Source: Tilletia caries
Taxonomy: Eukaryota; Basidiomycota; Exobasidiomycetes; Tilletiales; Tilletiaceae
Length of the DNA stretch: 64,000 bases
Assembly (NCBI GenBank): GCA_032718865.1
Contig: JALUTQ010000035.1
Location: forward strand, 930,001-994,000
Direction of reading: 5' to 3'
Below are positions 20,075-52,660 of the stretch, in pieces. The translations under genes and the position numbers were made by a program. Below the pieces are notes generated by a model. The model was not told where the DNA came from. It saw only the letters and a program-made list of their open reading frames with translations, and made no database searches. Within the stretch, counting starts at the first letter, position 1; each line of letters opens with the position of its first letter.

Positions 20075-21949
20075 TCAGCAGTGAGTAGCATGACGGATCT
20101 ACCGCGCCGATTTGAAGTTGTACTGAATCTAATACACGTTTCGAAGTTGTTGTGAACATTCTACCACTATACTAAAAGGTGAGACCAGTCTCGACCCAAG
20201 TGTCATGGATGATGCATATATCCAACAGAAGTCAGAATTTTACTCCCTCCAACCTTTTTGCCGTGCCGGCCGTGGACCATCTTCGACTCGGCTCAACCCT
20301 TCCCTTGACCGGCCTGCCATTTCGACTAGTTGAGCTGCTTCCGCTTTGGGCCGGCCCTCGGACTGTTGCTTCCCGTCGTCTCTGCTATTGTACCCTTCCT
20401 CCAAATTCCAGCATCGACCTCACCGACTTTCAACTCTTTGTCCATGCGTTTCGGGCGTAGCTACTGGTCGCCCAGTTCCAACCAAGGTTTCTGCGTCTGT
20501 TGGTTGCGTCGGCTACAACCTACGCGTTCTTCCTCCTAATCCCCCGTGCACCGCACGCTCGCATCTCCCTCACCCCTCACCTGTCACCACTCACTTACTG
20601 TAAAGCAAATTCTCGTCGTAACGATTTGAAGTAGATTTTTGTCCCAGCACCATGTTCCTCCGTACTCCGTAGTTCACAATTGAAATCATTGTATCATTGA
20701 TCGATCCGGTTCCTTCGCATCCCTTCCTCGGCTGATAGTCGCCAGTCCCGGCGCATATCGGACTTCGGAGTATCGGACGCATTAAAGTCTCAAAATGAAT
20801 GATGTCGATTACGTGTGCTGCGCTGCGCGTAGAAGGTAGAAGGGAAGGTCTACATGGCTCCATTTGACGTTGAAAGATTGGCGTAGTTGGTGTGTATAAG
20901 CTGAAAGCAGCGCAAAAATCGATCAGCTTCGCCGTTAAGCAAGCGGAAGCGAGTCTCCATTTTGAAAATGACATACCTTCCCCTATTGAAAAGGATCACC
21001 GTGTCCCCCGTCCGTGGCAGAAGGTGCGCTGGTCAGTGGCGACACCTCTGCCGACAAGACTTCCCCTCCCCTTTCCTCCACAGGCTCCGAAACCGAGATT
21101 TGACCATTTGTGCGCGTCTGGAAAAAATGAAAAATGAAGGAGCATATGTCAGCACTCAGTACTGCGGACGACTCGAGTCGTATTCTGGCGTCTGATGTGC
21201 CTTGCCATTACCAAATTGTCCTACCAGACGCCCGCGCCTGAATAAAACTGGAATGTGATCAGTAGAGGGAGAGTTGGGATCAATAGAAGCATGGGTGCCT
21301 GCCTGTGAGCTGTGAGAGTGTACTCACTGAGCAAAACGCAAAGCACCAGCGTGGAGAAGGCGTGGAGGAGAAAACCTGCGGCAAATGGCGGAGGAGGGCC
21401 GAAGGCCGGGAGCGCGCGAAGGTGGTGCAATGACGGGGAGAGATCCGACGGAAGCTGGTGCATGTAGGGGCTGTCAAGAAGAGAGAGAGAGAGAGAGAGA
21501 GAGACGGAGACGAGTGGAGGGAAAAAGAGACGAGGGGAGGGAAAAGACGTGAGCAAGGGAGAGAAGAGATAGTAAGCCATGAGGCGGGCAAGAAGCAGAT
21601 GGGAAGCCAGCACTGCTCACAGTTCTGTGAAGTCACCTTGGTGTCAGTGTGTCTGGGTGTGATGAGTTTTCGTGGAAGTGAGAGTGGCGGTGACCGTTCC
21701 GCCAAACTTGTGTCCGCTTTGTGACCAACACCGCCGAATTCTGTGACCAGCTGTGTCCAGAGAAAAACACCCCTAATTGTTGATTCGGGGAATTCCACGT
21801 GGGAGCAAAACTAGATCACGTGACCCCACTTCCACCTTGGCGGGGAGGCTTTGCCCCCCCCCCCCCCCCCCCAACCAAAAGGACAAACCTGTCCGTCTCC
21901 ATTATTGCTGTCATGTGTAAATGTCTAATCCTGTCCGCTACGCGCTAAC
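20075..21949. other. Intergenic, no gene recognised
   Basis: Nearly 1.9 kb between Crypton 1 and the hAT element. It holds a GA microsatellite (about 21484-21504) and a homopolymer C run of about 18 bases (about 21854-21872). No frame shows a domain or spliced family resemblance. Confidence 0.4.
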
Positions 21950-21957
21950 CAGTGTTT

Positions 21958-22450
21958 CGAAGTATACTTGAAGGACCAGAAAATTTTCAAAACATACTAC
22001 AGTATACAGTATGTTTTTGGTCCGGAAGGTCTGACTACTGCGACAGTATGGAAAAAGTAGTACTGTTTCCTTCAAGTATACTGGCGACATACTGGCAAAT
22101 TTCCGGGTACTTACATTATACTGCAGGAGTACTGCAGTACTACTTAATAATGCTGCAGCAGTACCAGCCGAAACATTTATCCTTCAAGTATACTTTGCGT
22201 AGTACTACAGTATGTTTGCATCATGTTTTCTCGGTTCTTTTTCCCAAAACATACTGCAGGATAGTGCGAGTATATTGCAGTATAGCAAACATCCTGCAAG
22301 TACAGTGTCAGTATCCTGAAAGTATACCAGTGCTTACGTAAGCACGGTCGCTCCTTCGTGCGCATACTGCAGTACTACACGTGACCTACTTCAAGCATGG
22401 AGCGTCCACATTTTCTCGTACGAAAGTATACTTCGAGCAGCACTACAGTA
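21958..22450. repeat. Left subterminal array of GTATACT/CAGTACT motifs
   Basis: Dozens of short, partly palindromic motifs (AGTATACT, CAGTATA, AGTACTGCAGTA) crowd the first 500 bp of the hAT element. hAT transposases usually bind such subterminal repeats, so these are probable binding sites. They also form the upstream region of the transposase gene. Confidence 0.7.
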
Positions 22451-22646
22451 TCAAAAATATTTCTCACACTGACCTCCTGCCTTCACTCGCCGCCACCCAC
22501 GATTTCCCCTCCCTCTCCCTTCTTCTCTTCTCCAACGCTACATCAAGCGGCTCCCACCACTATTGTACACACCCAGTCAGGCACGCGTCCGACACTTCGA
22601 CCGCGGACGCCACCCTCCCCTCTATCGGCAATCACCATACTCCAGG

Positions 22647-25600
22647 ATGCCCCTTTCTCCCGAAGCGGAGGCCGACTTGCTCGGCCTAGTCGCCAAATAC
22701 CACTTCGATGTTATCGGCCACAACGAGTTCGACGCCGCTGTTGACAAGGTCAAAGCTGACCGCACGGCCCAGCGCATATACAAGAGTTTTCGGGTCACCA
22801 TGATGCAGACGGAGCCAGGGGGAAGTTTTTGGGAGCATCTGGTGAGTATCAGAGTATTTCGTCCGTGATTTGCCTTGCATCCGAGTCCCGATGGCTGACT
22901 AGGGACTCTGCTCCTCCGTGTACACCATCCCTCTCGTAGCCTGTCATTCAGCATGCGCAGAATAGGGCCATGGCCGCGCAGCTCAGCGTTCAACCATCCT
23001 ACGCAGAGTGGGTCAACTGGTGCGAATCTCAGCAGACGGAGAGTCGGCTGTTGGGCGCGGCCGGTCCAGCCCCATCCCAGGAACCGGATGCAGCGGCGGA
23101 AGGCGAGCAACCCCAATTCCCCAAGACGGTGGCCCCAGTGCTCAAGCAATCGAAACTGGTCATTCCGACTCGGCACGGTGAACGCCGCAAGTCAAAGAGC
23201 CCTTCGCGTCTCAAGGACTTCGAACTAACGGGTGGTGCTGCTGCGCCGTCCGGCACGAGGCCGCGTGGTCGTCCCCAACGGGAGGAGGAAGATGTTGTGC
23301 CAGATGACTCCGATGAGGAGGAATCTCTTCCGGGTCGTCCCGTAGCCCGGCAGCGCAAGCGCAAGCAGCCTGCCGTTGAGTCTGCAGGCACCGACGCCGA
23401 GGTTGATTCATCTGCCGACAACAGCTTTTCGGAAGACAGCGATGGTACCGATCCCGACGATCCCAAAGGGAAGAAGAAGGCAAAGGGCAAGAGCAAGAAG
23501 AGCCGGAAGGCGGAGAAGCGGAGGAAGAAGAAGGCTCGCAAGGCTCCCCCTCCTCTGAATGCTCAAGAACAGAAGGAGTTCGAGGACGCGGCCGGTCGTC
23601 GGCAACAACCCAATCGACAACCTCATGCCCAGCAGCCTGCCCAGCAGCCTGCCCAGCAGCTCGTTAAAGCCGATCCCAACGAGGCGAACGCCGACGTTGG
23701 CGCGCGTGGTTCGACATCGGTCCCTCCACCGGCAAGGCCTAGCAAGCCTGCCAGAGACTCGCTGGCTGGCCGTACGGATCAGCTTGCCGCTGGATACTTC
23801 GGCTTCAAGTACATCGGCCAGAAGATCTTTCATGGCAATTGGCGCGAGGACTGGATGGACCTCTACTGCTCTGAGCATCTGCTCATCCCCGCCGGCAAGA
23901 ACAACAACTTGGCCGCGCATCGCCTGATCTGTCCGCGAAACGCGGACCCTGTGGATCCCAGCATGCAGCCATACATTCCCGCAAAGCGTACGGTTAGGGG
24001 TCGGAAGACGGAGTCTCTGCTGCCTCCCGAAGGTTCGGAAGGAGGTGCTTCTTCCTATCACGGTCCAGAGGTGCAAGGTTGGCTGTCCGGTCAGCAGTTC
24101 ATCTCTATCGCGCTCACTCGTCGCCTGAGTCTCATCGAGATCCTGTTGAACGGTCTGCCATTCACGCATGCCACTTCTCCCGCTCATATCGCGTTGATCA
24201 AGAGCATCGACAGGAAGGCCCGGAAGGCGCTCGTCGGCCGCGACACCGTTCGCTCCGATCTTGAAGAGTTCAACGCCCTTCAAAAGGAGGAAGTCATTCG
24301 GCAGCTACACAACCATGATTCCCTCGTCACGCTTCAGCACGACGCCTGGACGGTCAAGGGGTATCGATATGCATTCGTCTGCATCCTGGCCACCTTCATT
24401 GATCGAAACTGGCAGTACCAAGAACTGCTGCTGTCATTCAAGGTTCTGGATCAGCGCCATTCCGGCGCCACTTTCGCTGGAGAGTTGGTCGACACCATCG
24501 AGTTCCGGTTGCAGGACAAGTGGTCGGGATTCGTGGTGAGCGACTCTGCATCAACCAACCTGAAGATGGCCAGTCTCCTTGAGCGACAGTTCCTCGACCG
24601 GACCGAGGATGTCGAATCCATCGTCCGCTGCCTTCTGCCCGTGCCTGACGACGACCTATCCTCCCAGCAGCGCCGCGACACACAGGACGAGCGAATGCAA
24701 GGGGATGGCGAGGGTTCCTCTTCGCTTCAACCTCGACCTCCAACAGCAGCAACCCGTCGCGGTCCTCCGCCTCCCAGTTCTCCGTCGTCTTTTCCCTCGG
24801 CATTTCAGCGGACGGGGTTCAAGTGGCAAGCCGAACATTGTGCTGTTCTTTGCTTTGCCCATCATCTCAACATCGCCATCCGAGACGGGTTCAAGGCGAT
24901 GGGGATCAAGTTCGCAGCTCAGATGAAGGTGATTCCGATTCCCAGTATCGTTGAGCCTGCAGGGGCTATCAACCCTCAAACTTTGGACGATGTGTGGCCT
25001 GATACCAAAGACCGTCCAGAGGAGAACAAGAAGGCCACTGCTGTTGCTGGAGGGAAGGATAACGCGGGAGACACGGGAGACGCGGGAGACGATGACGGCG
25101 AAATTGTCTCTGGCCAATTCTTGGGCCAAGCCATTCTGACGACGAGCGCCGAAGAACACGCCCCTCCTTCCGATGAGCGGGGCGAGGATGATGACGACGA
25201 CGAATTGACTTTCCAAACCGCCGACAATCAAGTGCGCTCGATCGATGCACTCGGTAATGGTCCTGTCGCCATCGCATCTTCCGACGGAGCTGTGAGAGGA
25301 ACTGGCGGCGATGATCTCAATCTTCCTCGCACAGGAACCGGCGGGGTGTGGTCCGCGGTTCAGCGAGTGGAGGGGTTTGTGGTTGCAATGCACCGCAGTG
25401 CAGAGAGACAGCATTTGTTCCGGGAGTTGATGCGGAAAGAATACTACAACCAGGAAAACAAAGCCAAAGCAGCGCTCCCCACCAAGCCCAACGATACTCG
25501 ATGGAACTCGCAGCTCTCGACTCTGCGCTCTGCGTTCAACATACGCGAAGCAATCGATGCCGCCATCGCGCAAGAACGGGATCCGACGCACGTTTACAAG

Positions 25601-26596
25601 GCCTTCGCCATGACCGAGGGCGATTGGCGTAACATCGAACAGCTTATCGAATTCCTCGTCCTTTCGGAAAGGATCTCGACCTCGGTACAAGCGTCCGGCT
25701 CGACCCTGGCTGACGTCTTGGAGTACCACGTTTTGATGGTCTCACAGCTCGATGATGCGCTGCGGACGATGGGTGATTGTGACGGGGCTAGGCTGGATGC
25801 GCAGAACAAAGAGGACCGGGCCAAGAAACCAGAAGATGCGCCTCATCAAATGGCTGCAGCACTTCGCGCCATCAAGCTGAAGCTGGGAAAGTTCCGGGAC
25901 CTGGCTGTTCAGAATCGCACCGCCGTCACCGCGGCTTTAATGCATCCCAACCATCGCCTCAAGCTCTTCAAGGACGATTACAGGGAGCGTCAAGATGAAG
26001 CAGAGGAAATGCTGAAGTCTGCTTTGTCGGAACTCTTGAACAGAGGGAAGAGTCCGAGCACACCGGCTATGGCAGCACCGGAGCCCACGGTCGGGGATTC
26101 TCCTCTGAAGGCGGCTCGGATGCAGCGTCTAGCGCGTGTTGAAGCCATGAAGACCCACGACGACGAAGATGTTGACGATCCAGTCGAGGATGAGATCAGG
26201 CGATACATCAGAAACGAAGCGGCCTGGCGAAACACGGACGGAACGCCCGAGACATGGTGGAAGGACAACGAGGTAGAGTTCCCCAATCTCGCCAAACTGG
26301 CGAGGATCTACCTGGCCGTCCCGGGAAGCACGGCATCCGTGGAGCAAGTGTTCTCCGCTGCTGGTTGGATCTGCTCCTCACGCAGAGGTCGACTCAGTGG
26401 AGAGTCACTCGGGCTTTTGGTAACTTCCACTGGATGGATGCGACAGGGATTCGATCGATTGCTGGGCTTGGACCACTCGGGACGGCAGGCTGGAAGACCG
26501 ATTCTGCAGGAGATGGACGAGACCATTGCGGAGACGAAGGCCAAGCGTCGCAAGGCTGACGCAAACCGACGCAAGCGCATGGCCATGGGTCTTTGA
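22647..26596 (+). CDS. hAT-family transposase
   Basis: CDS join(22647..22841, 22940..26596), 3852 nt, 1283 aa; the single intron is GTGAGT...CGTAG. After an N-terminal helical segment comes a long disordered Lys-rich stretch (KKAKGKSKKSRKAEKRRKK, a strong nuclear signal) and a possible zinc-binding region (WMDLYCSEHLL, AAHRLICP). The RNase-H-like core is clear: LVTLQHDAWTVKGYRY with the first acidic residue, DQRHSGATFAGELV, FVVSDSASTN with the second, CFAHHLNIAIRDG, and NDTRWNSQL. The C-terminal hAT dimerisation domain reads WWKDNEVEFPNLAKLARIYL, PGSTASVEQVFSAAG and SSRRGRLSGESL. An acidic insert (EDDDDDELTF) sits within the core insertion domain. No stop or frameshift was seen, so it is probably functional. 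The start is the ATG whose exon joins in phase. Confidence 0.9.
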
Positions 26597-26654
26597 ACAG
26601 CTGTAACCCCTACCCCTACCATCAAAAAAAAAGAAATGAACGCGACTGCCTCCA

Positions 26655-27330
26655 AATTATACTGACATGCCTCCTGCAGTACGTGAAGAGTATACTTGCA
26701 GTATACATATACTACTTTTACGAAGTCAAAGTATGAAGACAGTATTCTTGCAGTATAGTGCCAGTATATTTGAAAGATAATGACAGTATATTGGGAGTAA
26801 ACATACAGTACTACTGTACATTACCATCACATTACCCATGCAGTACTACACTTTACATTACTAAACAAGTAGTACTGCAGTATGTTGGCAGTACTACTGC
26901 AGGATAAATGCAGTACATCAAAAGGATAGTTGAAGTATTGGAGTGGTATACTTTAACTATACTGTCAAACATACTGATGTTACTCCTGTAGCAGTATGGT
27001 TCACGGACATGTTGAAGGGTAATGATAATATACTTCAAGTAGTAAGGCAATATGAACACAGTATACAATAAGGATACTTACAGTTCCTGAGCAGTATAAA
27101 TACAATACACTTGGAGTAGTAATGTACGACCATACTGTAGTACTCCTTTACAGTATGTTACGGTTTGTCCTGAAAGTATACCTGCTGCATACTGCCGATA
27201 TACTGTACATGTACTGACATTATCATGGCAGCATACGGGCAGTATGAAGACAAGATACTGTCAGGACACGGGCAGTATGAAAACATTGCCTTTGCAGTAT
27301 TGGAACAGGATGTCGGGTATGTGGGTTACA
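26655..27330. repeat. Internal array of GTATACT/CAGTACT motifs between transposase and kinase genes
   Basis: The same motif family as at the element ends fills the convergent intergenic space of the hAT element. Internal placement is unusual for hAT subterminal sites and may mark the old end of a smaller element to which the kinase gene was joined, or a shared regulatory region. Confidence 0.65.
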
Positions 27331-29317
27331 ACGGAAACACAAGAGATCGATCTGGAAGGGGACTGGAGTTCCAGAACTGGTGTCGCGAGGCCATACGTGC
27401 GCTTGGACGATCCAACGGCTCTAGCTGCATGAGATACAAGACAAATTGCCGCTTAATGGGACGTAGACCCATGATAGGGCGATGGTCGGCCTGTCGGATC
27501 TTGAACGTTCTGGCTCCTCCGATGCCAGCGTCGGGAGCCGGGTCCCGGAACACCAGCGAGGTGCGTGTGTCGACGAAGCTAATCATGCTTCGAAAGCAGG
27601 CGAGCTCGGAAGAAGCGTCGAACAGGTGACATTCTGTTCTGAGCTCGATGTATACGGTCCCAATTGGCCAGATGTCCATGGACTGGTGGGCGAAATGGTT
27701 TCTAAAGAGTTCTTCAGGTGGCCTGAACCCAAGCGTTCCCGTGGGAGATCCGAGCCGACAGTTGTCCTTGGGCCGAGAGAGACCGAAATCTGTTACCTTG
27801 CAGACGTGTTCGGGGTAAAGCAGAACGTTGTGGGGCTTGAGGTCCAGATGTAGGATGTTGCGCGAGTGCATCCATTGGATCGCCTCGATGATTTGGATGA
27901 CGTAGGTCTTCGCCTGGATCTCTGGGACGTCGCTAGGGTACTGCCGGATCAGCTTGTCCAACGACATGAGAGCGGCCGGCATGATGATGTCTATGTATGG
28001 CTCCGCGACCTGGTCGTTATAGATCACGTCGGAAATCTCGACAATGTTGGTGTGACCCTGCAGTCGCTGTAGGAAGTGGATCTCTCGCCTGAGATATCTC
28101 GAAGGAATCTTATCCGGCTCCCGGATTAGCTGCCGTTTCTTGGCGACCTCCTTGCCGGGGATAAGGAGGTTTACGCAGAGGTAGACCATCCCGAATCCTC
28201 CACGGTCGATTGGACGAGGAGCACCTTTCAACGGATAACGTCCAGTATTCCGCCAAGCCGGAGGCGGAGTCCAGGTCGCAACCGGTTGTTCGTTGACGAC
28301 TGCTTGTGGCCTCGGCGCCAAACCTACGAAGCGTGACTGCTCGATAGCAGCCACGTCGCGGTCGTCGAGATTTGGTGCTGCTGGCGGTGCGGCGGGCGCG
28401 AACGGAGGAGGAGCTTCTTGTGCGTGTGGAGCTGTGTCCACCACGGAGGGTGGTGGGGCTTCTTGCGGTGAGGGCGGGTGGAGGGGCCCTGCGGCAGCAG
28501 GAGGCGCGGGAGTTGTGTGTCTCGATTCCGGCGCTGAGATGACCACCCTAACCTCGAGGTCAATCTCCTGCGCCCGTCCAACGTCCGCCATCACCGCATT
28601 GTTGTCGATGCCGACGCCCTCATCCGCCCGTCCCACGTCCGCCATCTCGTTGGCGACGCGCTCATCCATCACGGCGTCGGACCCATTGTCAGCTACAGCG
28701 GCATTGGGCCGCGACAGGTCGGCTTCGTCATGTGGGCGGTGGCGCGAAGAGTGTTGCGCCGCCGTGCGATTGACGGGGACGGGAGGGTGTTGGCCCGAGT
28801 CGGGGGAGAGAGAAAGTTGTCTTTGGGGAATGAAGGTGCGAGCCAGTGTCGGGGGCGGGTTAGGGCGCTCGTTGACCACGAAGATGGAGGCGGGGAAGGT
28901 CACTAGCCCGTACAGGCGTGATGTTGAGATCAACTGGACGGCGTGGTGGAGTGAACAGGAGGCATCCTCTTGGATGAGGCGAATGAAGAGGAGCGGCAGG
29001 ATTTGTTCGGCGGCGCAGGAGATGGCGATGGGATCTGCGGTAGGAACCGCTGACTTGAGCTTTTCTTGGACCAACTTCGACACCAACATCGCATGATATG
29101 GGCCGTAGTAGCCGGCACCACGCAGGTCTGTCAGGGCGAAGTGCTTGGACTGCTCGAGGAGCTCGGCGGCGAGATCGGCGAGAATAACTTCCGTGTATGA
29201 TTTGTGGTCCTCGAACACACGCTGTGCGACGTCCGTCTCCGGGACGGCAGGCCATGATTGTAGGGAACCATGCGCCCTGATGGAACGGTGCTGTTCGGGT
29301 GAGAGCTCTTGGTCCAT
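27326..29317 (-). CDS. Protein kinase carried inside the hAT element
   Basis: Single exon, 663 aa from MDQELSPEQHRSIRAHG at 29317. Upstream in-frame ATGs fall in the repeat array and are not preferred. The N-terminal half has a helical region, then a Pro/Ala-rich linker with short repeats of a DVGRADE/NAVMADVGRA kind. The C-terminal half is a kinase domain: glycine loop IDRGGFGMVYL, VAKKRQL, YLRREIHFLQRLQGH with the helix-C Glu, catalytic loop HLDLKPHNVLL, DFGLSRP, GTLGFRPPE and DIWPIGTVYIEL. The HRD Arg is Leu and the first loop Gly is Asp; the catalytic Asp, the Asn and the DFG motif remain, so activity is possible. The specificity is unknown. Its position and orientation inside an intact transposon suggest cargo or a second element function. 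Confidence 0.85.
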   Translation of the reverse strand: MDQELSPEQHRSIRAHGSLQSWPAVPETDVAQRVFEDHKSYTEVILADLAAELLEQSKHFALTDLRGAGYYGPYHAMLVSKLVQEKLKSAVPTADPIAISCAAEQILPLLFIRLIQEDASCSLHHAVQLISTSRLYGLVTFPASIFVVNERPNPPPTLARTFIPQRQLSLSPDSGQHPPVPVNRTAAQHSSRHRPHDEADLSRPNAAVADNGSDAVMDERVANEMADVGRADEGVGIDNNAVMADVGRAQEIDLEVRVVISAPESRHTTPAPPAAAGPLHPPSPQEAPPPSVVDTAPHAQEAPPPFAPAAPPAAPNLDDRDVAAIEQSRFVGLAPRPQAVVNEQPVATWTPPPAWRNTGRYPLKGAPRPIDRGGFGMVYLCVNLLIPGKEVAKKRQLIREPDKIPSRYLRREIHFLQRLQGHTNIVEISDVIYNDQVAEPYIDIIMPAALMSLDKLIRQYPSDVPEIQAKTYVIQIIEAIQWMHSRNILHLDLKPHNVLLYPEHVCKVTDFGLSRPKDNCRLGSPTGTLGFRPPEELFRNHFAHQSMDIWPIGTVYIELRTECHLFDASSELACFRSMISFVDTRTSLVFRDPAPDAGIGGARTFKIRQADHRPIMGLRPIKRQFVLYLMQLEPLDRPSARMASRHQFWNSSPLPDRSLVFPL

Positions 29318-29419
29318 GGTGAGCGTTGCCGATGGCGGAGGAAGGCTGAAAGAAATGTTGCCGCGAGAGGTGGATGGCTGTTGACTGGATTCTGGCTGCT
29401 GACTAAGCAGAAGCTCATG

Positions 29420-30000
29420 GCACGTGACAAAAGTATACATACAGTATCCTCCCGGTATACGAACAGTACGTTTTGGCGGCGCGGGTGTTGGGCAAGTAGG
29501 AGAACAGTATGCGTCCAGTAGGTATACAATATACTTCAAATATACCAGGCAGTACATGCACAATAATACTTGCATGACATCGTCGAAGACAGTACTACTG
29601 CAGTACACTTACAGTATGCCAAAAGTATGGATGCAGTATACTCAAGGTATACCGAATGTTTTGATGGAAAGGTGGAGCTGAACATACTGACACTATACTG
29701 TATGGAACGAAGTATGCTGTAAAGGTACTGTGGAGTATACTGCAGTCCTCCTGAAGTATTACTGTAGATAGTGCTCGCGCCAGTATCCTTCAAGCATACT
29801 GCAGTATAAAAACGGTTCGGGGCCGGAATGTCGCCGTTTTTTCCATACTGCAGTATACTGCAGGACCGCGCCGGAGGATCCAAACAGGATACATTACCTT
29901 TTTTGAAACCGTCCAGATTTTCCGACAGGATACAGTATGTTTTTGCAAAAAGTAGTACTGCAACAGTATACTGCGACAGGATACAGTATGTAGTATGTCG
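29420..30000. repeat. Right subterminal array of GTATACT/CAGTACT motifs
   Basis: Same motif set as at the left end, packed between the kinase start and the right terminus of the hAT element. It doubles as the kinase upstream region and could couple kinase expression to transposase binding (inference). Confidence 0.7.
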
Positions 30001-30156
30001 AAACACTGGCGCTAACTCTAACTCGAAAAAAGTGGTGTCCAGCATCTAACTTAGCAACCAAGTAGAAAAAAGGAGGAAAAAGAGAAAAAAGAATGATCTA
30101 AACGGGATTCTAACCGCAGACTTACAGAATCGCAAGCCGCATCACTAACCGCTGAG

Positions 30157-48235: not shown

Positions 48236-51200
48236 TCACATGTCATCGTACGGCGCCGGAGCTCGTCCGTTCCCACGCTGCGATTGCCCCCACCGTGACT
48301 CACCCGAGCCCCAATTTGACGGCGCACCCTGCCCCTGCTGCCCCATCATCCCACCTCCACCAGGGCCACCGACGTTCCCAGCGCCCTGCTGTGGCGAAAC
48401 GGGAGCTTGCCCAAGCCCGCCGCCTCCAGCTTGATTCGGGTCCATCCCCATCCCCATGCCCATATTCGGGGCAGGTCGGTTGTTATAGCCAAATCGTCCA
48501 GCTCCCCCTCCTCCGCCGCCCCCTCCAGGAGGCCCACCCACACCCCCACCGCCGCAGCCGCCATTCGAATACCGAGGTCCCACACCGCGATGCCCGCCAC
48601 CGGGTGGTCCACCAGGTACGAACCCAACACCACCACCACCACCACCGCCCGGCCCGGTCCTCCGTCCAAAGCCACCACCACCGAGTTGTCCGCCCCCGCG
48701 ACCATACGCCTGCCCGAACGGCCGATTTCGGAAACCTTGCGTTTCAGCCGGGTTGATGACCCAATTGGAAGCAGGCATGTCAGCTTGTGATTGTGATTGG
48801 GATTGTGATTGTGACTGGGGATGGGAGGAGTGCATATCGGCACCACCCACACCACCGCCCGACGAAGGCTGTTGCACCCAATTGGAGTACGGCTGTTGTT
48901 GCCCACCAGACACGTTGCTGCTAGAGTCCGCATACATTGGCGCAGGGGGAGGACCCGGTGGAGGAGGTCCTCCCGGCAGTGGCGGTCTCGATCCGGGAAG
49001 CTGACCAAGATTAGGACCGGGGCCGGCGCTGGGACCGTTCGGTCTGCGCGGTGCGCCGTATACGCTGCCCATCGGCCCACCAGCCCCGCCGGACGGACCC
49101 GCGCCCGATCCACCTCCTTGCTGCCCCATCCCCATCCCCATTCCCATCCCTTGCCCCATCCCTGAAACTGAGCCAGAACCTTGTAGTCCCTGCCCAGCAC
49201 CACTCCCACCAGCCCCGTTATTCATCGGAAGGCTCATCCGCGTCGACGGCGCGCCATATGCCATAGGTGCACCACCACCGGGCCCTCCCCCTCCAACAGC
49301 ACCAGGAGGAGGTCCATACCCGGGCGCCATCCCCATCCCAGGCGGCCGCTGCGGCAAACTAGGTCTTCCACCACCCGCGCGATTCATGCCACCCATCCCG
49401 TGCTGGCCCCCACCGACACCGCCTCCGCCGTGCATATGCCCCCCATGTGAATGCTGGTGCTGCATGTGCGGCCGGCCATGGGAGTGGTGCGGGTGCGGGT
49501 GCATACCGCCGTGTGGATGGGCGTGCTGCGGTAGTTGGCCGTGCGGATGTGGATGTTGGTGCGGGTGGTTGTTATAGCCCATCCCCATCATGCCCTGCGG
49601 CATCATGGCCTTCTGCTGTTGCTCCATCAAAGCCAACTGCTTCGCCTCGCGCTTTGCCCTGTCCATCTCCTTGGACGCTTCGTACTTTGGCAGCCTGGGA
49701 GGGGGACAAGAGCAGCAGATGTCAGAGGGAGAAATATCAGAAGGCTTTTCGAGAAGGAATAACTCACTTCTTCGGATCAGCGGGGTACGGCCGGCTCCAG
49801 AACCACCTGTGCGCCAACGCTTCCCGCGCAGAAATCCGTTTCTTCGGATCCAACTCGAGCATCTGCTGCAACAACCCGATCATCTCCAAATCACTGCGAG
49901 GGGTTCGAAAAAGGCGAGAAACGCGCGCGCGAGGACAAAAAGAGGGACGGATCAGCTTTCTCCCCTAGCTTCATCCGCTGATTCCTGCACCTCCCACCTC
50001 CCCATACTCACATCTCAAGCCCATTCCTATAAAAGAACCCCTGCAACGTCGGGTTCGTCTCCGTCACAAACTCCTTCTGACCCGACGTCCTCCCACCAAA
50101 ATCAGGCCGACCAGAAGGGTCCGCGTCCCGGACGCCAACCAGGTTCCACCAGTCCGGGTAGTTCTTCAGCGTAGGCGTGCCCACCGCGTTGACGATGAGT
50201 TGCATCTGGTTGATCTCCGACGAGCCTTTGAACATCGGTCGCTTGAGGTACATCTCGCCGAGGATGCATCTGCGTGGCGGGGCGGGGCGGTCGGGCGGGG
50301 AGAATCGGAAACGAAAATGTGAGCGAGCCGAGTGGGAGAAGCGCCTCCGGGGAAATAAAGGAGGGAGGGAGGAGTAAAAAGACTCACCCAAGACCCCACA
50401 TGTCCACCGCCGGACCGTAATTCTTCATCCCCGCCAAAAGCTCCGGCGGCCGGTACCACCGGGTAACCACCATGCCCGTATAGTCCAACCGACTCGCGCC
50501 ATGCGCTTTCCCCTTCCCCCTCCACGCCGGCCGATCTTCATTATCAGGACCATCGATGCCGCCCTTCCTAATGCCATTTCCGTTGCCGTTGGCGCCGTGT
50601 CTGGAAGAAAAAGTGGTGGGATCCTCTGCCTTGATCCGCGCGTGGGTGCCTGTTTCGTTGGGATCGTTGAAGGGACGGGCGAGACCGAAGTCGGCGATTT
50701 GGAGGGAGCCTTCGTTGTTGATGAGCAGATTGGCTGCTTTCATGTCTCGATGCAGAATACGGTTCTGAAAGAAGAAACCCCAAAAAAAGGAGGGGGGGGG
50801 GGGGGGGATGAGCAAAGGCCACCGCCATTAAAGTTGCGTGAATGAGAAAGAGGGTAGGATAAGCGGACTCACCTTGTGGAGATAGAGGGTTCCTTCTAAG
50901 AGTTGCTTCATGTAGAGCTTGATCTGACTGGGCGGCAGCTTGACTATCTGCTGATTCTCGAGCAGACCGTTGAGATCGTGGTCCATGTAGGGCTCGACCA
51001 TGAATATGGTGCCGCGGGCCGCACCGCCGCTGATCCCACCAGACGCCTGACCCGATATCGAAGCGCTCTCCTTGTCGCGCAGATAGGTGGCAGGATCGAT
51101 CCCCCTCTCGATCAGACTGCGAATCTCGTTGTGGAGCAGAGGTGGAGGCTCGTACACGATGTCGATCACGGGTATGACGGCCGGATGGCGCAGAATCTTG

Positions 51201-52087
51201 AGCAGCTTGATCTCCCGAATCGTAGTTATCGGCATCCCGTCCTTCTCCTCGTGAATGACGACCTTCTTCAAGGCGACGTCGCGCTCGTTGCGCTTGTCGC
51301 GTCCGCGCTGGACGACACCAAAGGTGCCCTGACCGAGCTTCTCCGAGAGCTCGTAGTCGGCCGAGGCGGAGCATCCGACCCAGGTGATCTGCTCTGGGTT
51401 GCCCTTACGCGCGATGCGACTGCGCTTGGCGGCAGCTTGACGGGCGAAGAATCGGCTCCCGCCATTCGTGAGGGCGGATTGCTCCGAGCGCAGTCGGGGC
51501 ACAGGCTTGAGCTGTTGGAAGGAGGCCGTTTGCTCGGCTTTGGCCTGTGCGGGATGAGTGGAGATGGGTAGGCCCACTGCCGATTGGGATGGATTCGCTT
51601 GAGAGACTGGAAGGGCGCCGTTGATGGAGGCCGATCGTGCGAGGGCTGAATGATGGGCAGATCCCCCGGCTGCCGCTGTCCCTGCGCCTCCCCCGTAGGC
51701 TGACCAGCGCGCGTGCGAGCTCTCAGTTCCTATCGCGTGCGCATGAATCGAGCGATCCTGCTTGATGGCTGCAAGATACTGGCTGGTCTTGGCCCCGCCC
51801 GTACCGACCTTGACGGAGGATGACATTGCTGGCGAGGGCACGATGGAGGGATGGAGGGGCGCGCCTGGCTTGATCTCTGGCTTGATCTCGTAGGCGGCGT
51901 CGGTCATGACGGCATCTGAGCCGTACGGATCGGCAGCATAGCGAGGCACCTTGACCGCGGCTGCTCCTGCGAGGTCGTTTGGGCTTGCTGCTCGCTTGAC
52001 CGCGGCGTTTGGTTGTGTGGGCCTGGGTGGTTGTGGAAACCCCGGCGGCGGGGGCGCGTGCGCCTGTCCATTGGATGGGTACGACAT
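48236..52087 (-). CDS. BUR1/CDK9-like cyclin-dependent kinase
   Basis: CDS complement(join(48236..49694, 49768..49893, 50012..50269, 50388..50764, 50873..52087)), 3435 nt, 1144 aa. Long disordered N-terminus, then kinase domain from about residue 245: [36 protein letters not shown] (the cyclin-binding PITALRE-type helix), [44 protein letters not shown] and a C-lobe ending [11 protein letters not shown]. An insert of about 50 residues lies between DFG and the [10 protein letters not shown] segment. The C-terminal 480 residues are His/Gly/Pro-rich ([10 protein letters not shown], repeated GGGG). The family phosphorylates Spt5 and the Pol II tail during elongation in the nucleus. CTK1 is an alternative, but PITTIRE favours the BUR1/CDK9 branch. 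Confidence 0.88.
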
Positions 52088-52660
52088 GCTGGCTTGGGTG
52101 CGGAAGTTGGGTTGCTACTGCTGCTCGTTGAGGACAGTCCTGAGCGCGTTTTCCGCTGCACCTGCTGCCTGCTGTCGCCGCGCCGTACGCGGAGAGAAAC
52201 GCTCGGTTCGAAAACCACGCGGCGCGTCACGCGTCACCGGGCCGACCAGGACCGGGTGAGAGAGTACAGGCAGGGGCGAGGCGGGGCTCGGCTGCCGCGA
52301 TGCTCTGCAGAAGGGAAGAGTAAGAGAGAGAGAGAGAGAGACGAGTCACGGACTGGTGATGGTGGTCCTTGCGGATTCAGTGATTCCAGCTGCGAACTTC
52401 CCGCTCCACTCACTCACAACTCACAAGTCACAGCTTGTCGGGTTCTTGTCGGGCCTGCCTATGCTCGCAGCTGCCCGCCTCAAGCGAGACGATCTTCCAC
52501 CAGCTGACGGAAGCCTTCATACGAACGAACGAATTCACACAGGACGACGTCCATCTTGCTCACTACTCGCTCCCTCTCTCCTCTGCTGTACCCCCCGTGC
52601 ATTGCTCACATCTTCGTCCCCTATCTCTGTGTCTTTGTCTGTGTGTTGATCAAGCCAATA
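52088..52660. promoter_or_regulatory. Divergent promoter region of the BUR1-like and DUF2461 genes
   Basis: 573 bp between two divergent start codons. It contains a (GA)n microsatellite at about 52326-52342 and CT-rich leaders. No discrete factor site is claimed. Confidence 0.5.

Follow-up and report, generated by a model that had tools for sequence, protein, structure and literature searches.

Within a window of 64,000 nucleotides from Tilletia caries (the whole stretch analysed, G000:C30:930001-994000, in a genome of 38.1 Mb and 40 contigs) lies a hAT transposon, at 21950..30008, whose borders enclose a protein kinase gene beside the transposase gene, and the question that this locus raises is whether the kinase belongs to the transposon and what it does there. 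The usual picture of a hAT element is of a transposon with a single gene, under host regulation. The kinase is a conserved, long-standing part of a hAT lineage, and not recent cargo. Because it is conserved and present with very different transposases, we infer that it works for the element, and its role is probably to regulate transposition, perhaps via the transposase. On balance, judging from sequence comparison, the window locus appears to be an intact member of a Tilletia hAT lineage in which the kinase serves the element, likeliest by phosphorylating its own transposase.

Borders and parts of the element

The transposase gene lies on the plus strand and is followed, 729 bp on, by the kinase gene on the minus strand, so that the two are convergent. 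The parts of the element are the following.

21942..21949, no strand: target-site duplication, left copy, 8 bp, GCGCTAAC
21950..30008, no strand: complete two-gene hAT element, 8,059 bp
21950..21960, plus strand: terminal inverted repeat CAGTGTTTCGA, left (transposase side), 11 bp
21961..22470, no strand: left subterminal region, with many short AGTAT-type repeats; the outermost ~330 bp are also present in short derivatives
22647..22841, plus strand: transposase exon 1, 65 codons, spliced as in P0073 and P0074
22842..22939, plus strand: transposase intron, GTGAGT...TAG, as in the Tilletia models P0073 and P0074
22940..26596, plus strand: transposase exon 2 including the stop, with a zinc-finger-like region (by eye), catalytic core and hAT C-terminal dimerisation domain
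24341..24343, plus strand: Asp 533, opposite Hermes D180 (alignment, weak stretch)
24542..24544, plus strand: Asp 600, opposite Hermes D248 (alignment, weak stretch)
26099..26110, plus strand: S-P-L-K, transposase residues 1119-1122, candidate kinase target
26342..26344, plus strand: Glu 1200, opposite Hermes E572 (alignment, significant stretch)
26597..27325, no strand: AGTAT-rich intergenic region between the convergent genes, 729 bp
27326..29317, minus strand: CDK-like (cyclin-dependent kinase-like) protein kinase gene, 663 residues, single open frame
27368..28273, minus strand: kinase domain and preceding W..P..W...GRY motif, residues 349-650
28901..29155, minus strand: N-terminal RTC4-like stretch, residues 55-139 (Pfam score 22.0, cut-off 23.7)
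29420..29997, no strand: right subterminal region, with many AGTAT-type repeats; the outermost ~240 bp are also present in short derivatives
29998..30008, minus strand: terminal inverted repeat, right (kinase side), reverse complement of CAGTGTTTCGA, 11 bp
30009..30016, no strand: target-site duplication, right copy, 8 bp, GCGCTAAC

The initial annotation, which was made from the sequence alone, had described perfect 11-bp inverted ends and perfect 8-bp duplications at these borders, and between them an intact 663-codon kinase; all of these are confirmed, and the kinase has no internal stop. It had also described a full-length intact transposase, which is indeed intact and has the hAT motifs, though it is not a single open frame, being interrupted by the short intron. 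Matches to CAGTGTTTCGA with at most one mismatch number two in the window and are exactly the two element ends. By count this is ordinary, as 1.32 are expected at one mismatch and two or more occurred in 41 of 100 shuffles; what is unusual about the pair is that both members are perfect, face inward and have the same eight bases, GCGCTAAC, outside each. The ends are short inverted repeats of the CAGTG type found in hAT elements, and one end of another element of this genome, C27:899382-905844, reads TAGTG. A run of C's lies at 21857-21872, about 75 bp left of the element.

Genome-wide, the 11-mer CAGTGTTTCGA occurs 77 times, against 13 times for the same letters reversed, which served as control. 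Inward-facing pairs less than 12 kb apart number 17, where 0.46 are expected and the maximum in 2,000 trials was 3; two of them are two-gene elements (the window and one on C27) and the other 15 are 632-1,612 bp long. Three of these short derivatives, all on contig C1, were compared, and each has the transposase-side end on one side and the kinase-side end on the other; among the two in which the duplication was checked, one has a perfect copy, CTATCCGG, and the second has none.

These derivatives bear on the extremely improbable reading that two neighbouring elements, or nested insertions, were taken for one, a reading that draws on the difference between the left and right subterminal regions of the window element beyond the 11-bp repeat. 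The short derivatives show exactly the same left-right combination, one of them with a perfect duplication, and eight elements of this genome have matching ends and duplications, five of these with full empty sites. The right border belongs to the window element, since the short derivatives carry the same two differing subterminal ends, and the suspicion that the right terminus was foreign fails for this reason. A right end from another element is ruled out by the short derivatives together with the matching ends, duplications and empty sites. As a separate observation, six 11-bp end motifs, all facing the same way and spaced by about 2.5-3.1 kb, stand at G000:C22:642719-656884, a series that looks like a tandem array.

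Complete elements and empty sites

Several copies with both genes and different 8-bp duplications had been named as the support to look for, and eight two-gene elements were found in this genome whose ends match and whose 8-bp duplications are all perfect and all different, the ends having been sought only around two-gene loci, plus short derivatives of the window family. They are the following.

C30 window element, 21950..30008: duplication GCGCTAAC, both genes unbroken
C40:285981-292368: duplication CTTCCTTA, transposase broken
C21:45854-52390: duplication TCCTGAAT, kinase broken
C27:899382-905844: duplication GTCGAGGG, both genes unbroken
C4:1036310-1042676: duplication ACCATGCA
C5:2026424-2032765: duplication TATGTGAC
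C3:216566-223412: duplication GATTCAAT
C40:1780097-1789243: duplication GATTGCGG, ~1.6 kb of the middle unread

Matches to both kinase and transposase lie between the ends in all eight. The 8-bp duplication typical of hAT insertion is perfect in these eight and in one short derivative, a figure that for the eight reflects selection, as they were chosen for perfect 8-bp duplications. Empty sites were sought in the genome for the eight elements and one short derivative by joining flanks of 110 and 110 nt, with the duplication present once. Full-length matches of 98-100% were obtained for five of the eight (C40:285981, C21, C27, C4 and C40:1780097) and also for the short derivative, and the window flanks gave a partial match of 130 of 220 nt across the junction at 89%. 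No empty site was found for the C5 and C3 flanks among the best 40 of 324 candidates. Empty sites had been proposed for sister strains; those found are paralogous, located in repeats of the same genome, and not orthologous. From these features the two genes appear to insert together as one unit, each insertion making an 8-bp duplication, which is consistent with hAT cut-and-paste transposition.

Further copies fall outside the eight. The copy at C34:1734903 has both frames open, a duplication matching at 7 of 8 positions and a right end without its last two bases (by eye), and the copy at C15:724807 has lost one end. Complete ends of the C25/C40 pair (99% alike; C25:973497-980090) were not found in the sequence examined. 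Three copies of one element family, at G000:C21:1099115, 1118931 and 1138791, lie close to the end of a contig at intervals of about 19.8-19.9 kb and are 99.1-99.8% alike in the compared stretches; they may be carried by a larger tandem duplication.

Recurrence of the convergent pair

Protein searches of the genome gave 69 and 93 rows of kinase matches and 61 and 64 rows of transposase matches, which are lower bounds because only the best candidates were scored. They form 39 transposase clusters (seven minor transposase rows inside clusters already counted were left out) and 88 kinase clusters, many of which must belong to the ordinary kinases of the host. Of the 39 transposase clusters, 29 have their nearest kinase within 4 kb, where 0.72 are expected in any orientation. 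In 28 of these 29 the nearest kinase is located 3' and on the opposite strand, that is, convergent, and the remaining cluster, C27:533371, has another kinase match 3' and convergent at 2.6 kb. The deepest pairs (C9, C33, C40:380830, C25:1182003, C3:620796 and C27:530459) are recognised by weak kinase matches (E 7e-9 to 4e-14) and by position. A convergent kinase accompanies deeply diverged transposases, with 25-50% identity to that of the window. The possibility, raised beforehand, that the kinase is a single host gene fails on these matches, and a single host kinase captured once is ruled out by the many kinase matches and the recurrent convergent pairing across the genome.

The transposase

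The window transposase has 1,283 residues and one intron, and matches the Pfam model Dimer_Tnp_hAT (PF05699) with E 1.5e-14; the same domain is above the cut-off in three of four further transposases and below it in P0078. D533, D600 and E1200 stand opposite D180, D248 and E572 of Hermes, which are the catalytic residues of that enzyme; the C-terminal stretch of this alignment is significant, and the stretch holding both Asp residues scores only about 1 bit. The nearest proteins are P0073 of T. laevis, with a 100% match in the 56% that aligns, and P0074 of T. controversa, for which the corresponding figures are 99% and 62%. No relative outside Tilletia is among the eight rows of the transposase protein search, in which, as in the other protein-database searches, five-residue words had to be shared and about 8,000 candidates were scored, so that more distant relatives could have escaped notice.

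The kinase and its conservation

The window kinase matches the Pfam Pkinase model with E 4e-38, and its fold and catalytic residues are those of a eukaryotic protein kinase. The nearest solved structures, both by sequence and by fold, are CDK-type kinases, and the helix-C region, for example PSTQLLYEVEAL in family C, resembles the PSTAIRE helix of CDKs; by these comparisons the element kinases are classed as CDK-like. They differ from CDK-type kinases in having HLD or HCD for HRD, a GTxGY/F..PE activation segment and the W..P..W...GRY extension. The RTC4-like N-terminus exceeds the Pfam cut-off only in P0005 of T. indica among the scanned A-clade kinases (P0001, P0002, P0004 and P0005), and the predicted structure of the kinase N-terminal domain alone (pLDDT 64) has no PDB match at E <=0.001, which says little.

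The nearest kinases are P0003 of T. controversa (96%) and P0002 (85%). Tilletia proteins head both kinase searches, with four of 71 rows in one and the first 13 rows in the other (best 120 of 289), and ordinary kinases come after them. The top match from outside Tilletia among the best 120 of 289 is P0094 of Rhodosporidiobolus, which looks like an ordinary CDK and has no GRY motif. Close relatives of the kinase among the matches listed thus appear to come from Tilletia only. The W..P..W...GRY motif is found in 13 of the 18 Tilletia kinases compared, including that of the window, and in none of 182 other compared proteins, eight of them transposases; the five Tilletia kinases without it are P0083, P0085, P0086, P0091 and P0092. 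Full-length element kinases have the ATP-binding Lys, the helix-C Glu, H-x-D, Asn, DFG and (A/P)PE. In the A1 set (10 kinases) the motif and the core residues are invariant, and the Lys of DLKP nearly so; in the A3 set (18 kinases) most of these positions are kept. Two kinase frames of family D are fragments.

In a tree of 28 rows, 15 kinases stand together on one side of a branch with support 96/92, present in 96% of bootstrap trees. Eight of them are from this genome and seven are Tilletia database proteins, whose genomic surroundings are not visible. The group joins one with CDK-type rows at 91/94, a branch that was not starred in this midpoint-rooted tree with few ordinary kinases. Three rows were dropped from the tree, as the host kinase in the window gave no match, P0136 was too short once trimmed and L014 had no open frame. 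Outside the element-kinase group stands another, distinct clade of CDK-like kinases (L027, L030, L031 and L038; support 100/99), and one of its members, C25:1020285 (G000:C25:1020285-1024064), is convergent with a hAT transposase match at C25:1021863; this clade is possibly an independent kinase recruitment.

The ratio of nonsynonymous to synonymous substitution rates (dN/dS) in the kinase domain is 0.32 (A, two copies), 0.28, 0.20, 0.08, 0.09, 0.13, 0.08, 0.19 and 0.34, and is undefined by saturation in two of 11 pairs; between families dS is mostly above 1.5, and several values are near saturation, which makes the ratios rough. In the transposase dN/dS is 0.11-0.53 (eight pairs). These values show the element kinases to be under purifying selection. 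They make it very improbable that the kinase is a passive passenger, an old capture that hitch-hikes with no function: stops in the C21, C15 and C28 copies and the catalytic oddities of families B, E and F would agree with such decay, and they are set against kinase-domain ratios of 0.08-0.34, conserved core residues and retention of the kinase in diverged families.

An unlikely but more serious reading is that the transposon transports the kinase as cargo, kept because it benefits the fungus in signalling, in virulence or under stress. A long frame, open in several copies and under purifying selection, agrees with it, and ToxhAT with ToxA is a fungal hAT that carries useful cargo, as the accessible part of its description has it (PMC12506042). 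Against this, the same convergent kinase accompanies transposases of 25-50% identity, as fits a gene of the element, several kinase copies contain stops, and the close relatives among the matches listed are confined to Tilletia.

Exchange of kinase modules between families

A chimeric element on C35 (G000:C35:422004-427375) has a transposase half 99% like the C27:899382 family and a kinase half 98% like the C40:285981 family. The switch, at C35:425351-425355, lies between the genes, in the counterpart of the window intergenic region 26597..27325. The transposase of family B is nearest to that of E (67%), while the B kinase is nearest to those of F and F2 (69-71%) and only 48% identical to that of E. 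Between F and F2 the kinase dS is 0.12 and that of the compared transposase part is 2.25; the block in which F and F2 are alike also covers the 3' end of the transposase gene. Given these exchanges between element families, the kinase behaves as a module of the element pool. In other fungal transposons the TET/JBP genes are likewise reported as mobile modules, in the accessible text of that report (PMC12730594).

Function of the kinase

In the proposed mechanism, the kinase would phosphorylate the transposase of its own element at S-P-L-K (1119), which lies in a variable linker ahead of the region with the C-terminal dimerisation domain and the catalytic Glu, and would also act on an S-P-S-R motif at 152, in the basic N-terminus; phosphorylation could then tie excision or assembly to a state of the cell cycle or of repair that permits it. 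S-P-L-K is invariant in the six A-type transposases aligned (window, C4 and P0075-P0078; P0073, P0074, P0079 and P0080 are excluded from this alignment) in an otherwise variable linker, and its S-P is kept in families B, D and E. The N-terminal S-P-x-R is present in all five A-type rows that cover the region. Counts of full CDK-type sites are raised in A2, P0075, P0076 and P0078 (P 0.006-0.024) and not clearly raised in B, D, E and G (P 0.07-0.48).

Several observations weigh against a kinase that serves its element by this route. Full CDK-type sites in the window transposase are not above the shuffled level (2 sites, 1.41 expected, P 0.39), and none of the nine transposases tested has an excess of plain S/T-P sites (P >=0.13). 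In families F2 and C there is no S-P site and in G it was not found, and the elements of these three families carry the kinase all the same. The naming of the transposase as substrate is, from these sequence patterns, weak. In the kinases, family B has DITP for DLKP, family F has a degraded glycine loop and family E has His for the Asp of the DVW motif; the A kinase has dN/dS of 0.37 over its whole length and 0.42 over the first 335 residues, and the roughness of the ratios given above counts here as well. Of the eight complete elements, the window element and C27:899382 alone have two unbroken genes, at least one gene being broken or incompletely read in each of the other six. A window-family copy, G000:C27:268575-277536, which is 92-97% identical to the window element in aligned DNA pieces and has an interrupted transposase, has intact ends and no matching duplication. 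For ten of the 39 transposase clusters no kinase match lies within 4 kb; two of these ten, at C5:1624972 and C1:244972, have no kinase frame in the 2.2 kb read 3' of the transposase. Downstream of the kinase-less transposase at C5:1624972 there is a 436-residue frame, gag-like by eye (L083 796-2106, plus strand).

The main rival keeps the same two-gene transposon and directs the kinase not to the transposase but to host proteins, such as the machinery of DNA repair, of the cell cycle or of silencing, or RNA polymerase II, on which CDK12/CTK1 act; it is possible and less probable than action on the transposase. The CDK-like fold and PSTAIRE-like helix-C region would suit a host target, and the movement of kinase halves between families with 46-72% identical transposases would be easier if the target were not the cognate transposase; the absence of the S-P site in F2 and C points the same way. 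A precedent is given by the TET/JBP genes of fungal DNA transposons, thought, in the accessible part of the paper, to counter silencing (PMC12730594). No result indicates a particular host target, and such a target leaves the conserved S-P-L-K of the A type unexplained. Taking both routes together, it is about an even call that this hAT branch encodes a CDK-like kinase as an obligatory second transposition protein, which times or licenses its own movement via the transposase or via host repair and cell-cycle machinery, with modules traded between families.

Relation to known systems

The element shares with the hAT superfamily (Hermes and the fungal hATs) the 8-bp duplications, CAGTG-type ends, D/D/E residues opposite those of Hermes and the C-terminal dimerisation domain, and it differs in its second conserved gene, a convergent CDK-like kinase, and in its long transposase (1,283 residues). 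The nearest published parallels, as far as the accessible text of one report goes, are IS3EU with an alpha-kinase and hAT7 with TET/JBP (PMC12730594). The hAT7 elements of rust fungi likewise form a fungal hAT lineage, in which the gene beside the transposase also codes for an enzyme and moves between transposon lineages, but the enzyme is a TET/JBP dioxygenase, the duplications are of 7 bp and the host is Puccinia, whereas the enzyme here is a protein kinase and the duplications are of 8 bp; no TET domain is among the Pfam matches of either protein of the window element. IS3EU is alike in that a single basidiomycete DNA transposon holds a transposase gene and a kinase gene of opposite orientation, but belongs to another superfamily, with 6-bp duplications and an alpha-kinase; Pfam matches at E <=1 give here Pkinase and hAT domains and no alpha-kinase. 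The two cases look like parallel acquisition. The word "kinase" is absent from the main text, as accessible, of an earlier paper that discusses IS3EU (PMC10045372).

Other fungal hATs also carry a gene besides the transposase. Histone H3 was captured by fungal hATs, and the H3 copies are inactivated (PMC6710886), and ToxhAT carries the effector ToxA (PMC12506042), both according to the parts of these papers that were available; in contrast with them, the kinase is common to deeply diverged element families. In the available passages of a genome study of T. caries, T. controversa and T. laevis, hAT is listed among 15 transposon superfamilies, and no kinase-related passage is among those examined (PMC9172201). 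In the open-licence literature, judged mostly by title or abstract and with Repbase outside its scope, no kinase-bearing hAT was found, nor, judged by title, any paper on transposase phosphorylation. As hATs with extra genes are known, the novelty lies in the kinase and its conservation. The initial annotation, which had proposed an undescribed two-gene transposon with the kinase as mobile cargo or partner, is supported as to the partner and the novelty of the kinase, and is amended as to two-gene hATs in general and as to recent cargo.

These findings suggest that a transposon can come with a signalling enzyme of its own, and a lineage that keeps a CDK-like kinase, for the most part with its catalytic residues, across transposases of 25-50% identity would be a clear eukaryotic case of a cut-and-paste transposon that does so. 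Together with IS3EU and its alpha-kinase, they suggest convergent recruitment of kinases by fungal DNA transposons. The coupling of transposon movement to the cell cycle or to repair becomes a directly testable question.

Other kinase genes in the window and genome

At 50828-52114 of the window, on the minus strand and 20.8 kb outside the element, lies a frame that, judged by eye, resembles an ordinary host kinase of the CDK-like type (KLGQGTFGVV...PITTIREIKLL). On C22, the G-family locus holds beside its full kinase frame another that is shorter and kinase-like (G000:C22:1178737-1179324), and extra kinase matches like it are found at C40:618522 and C4:1628195.

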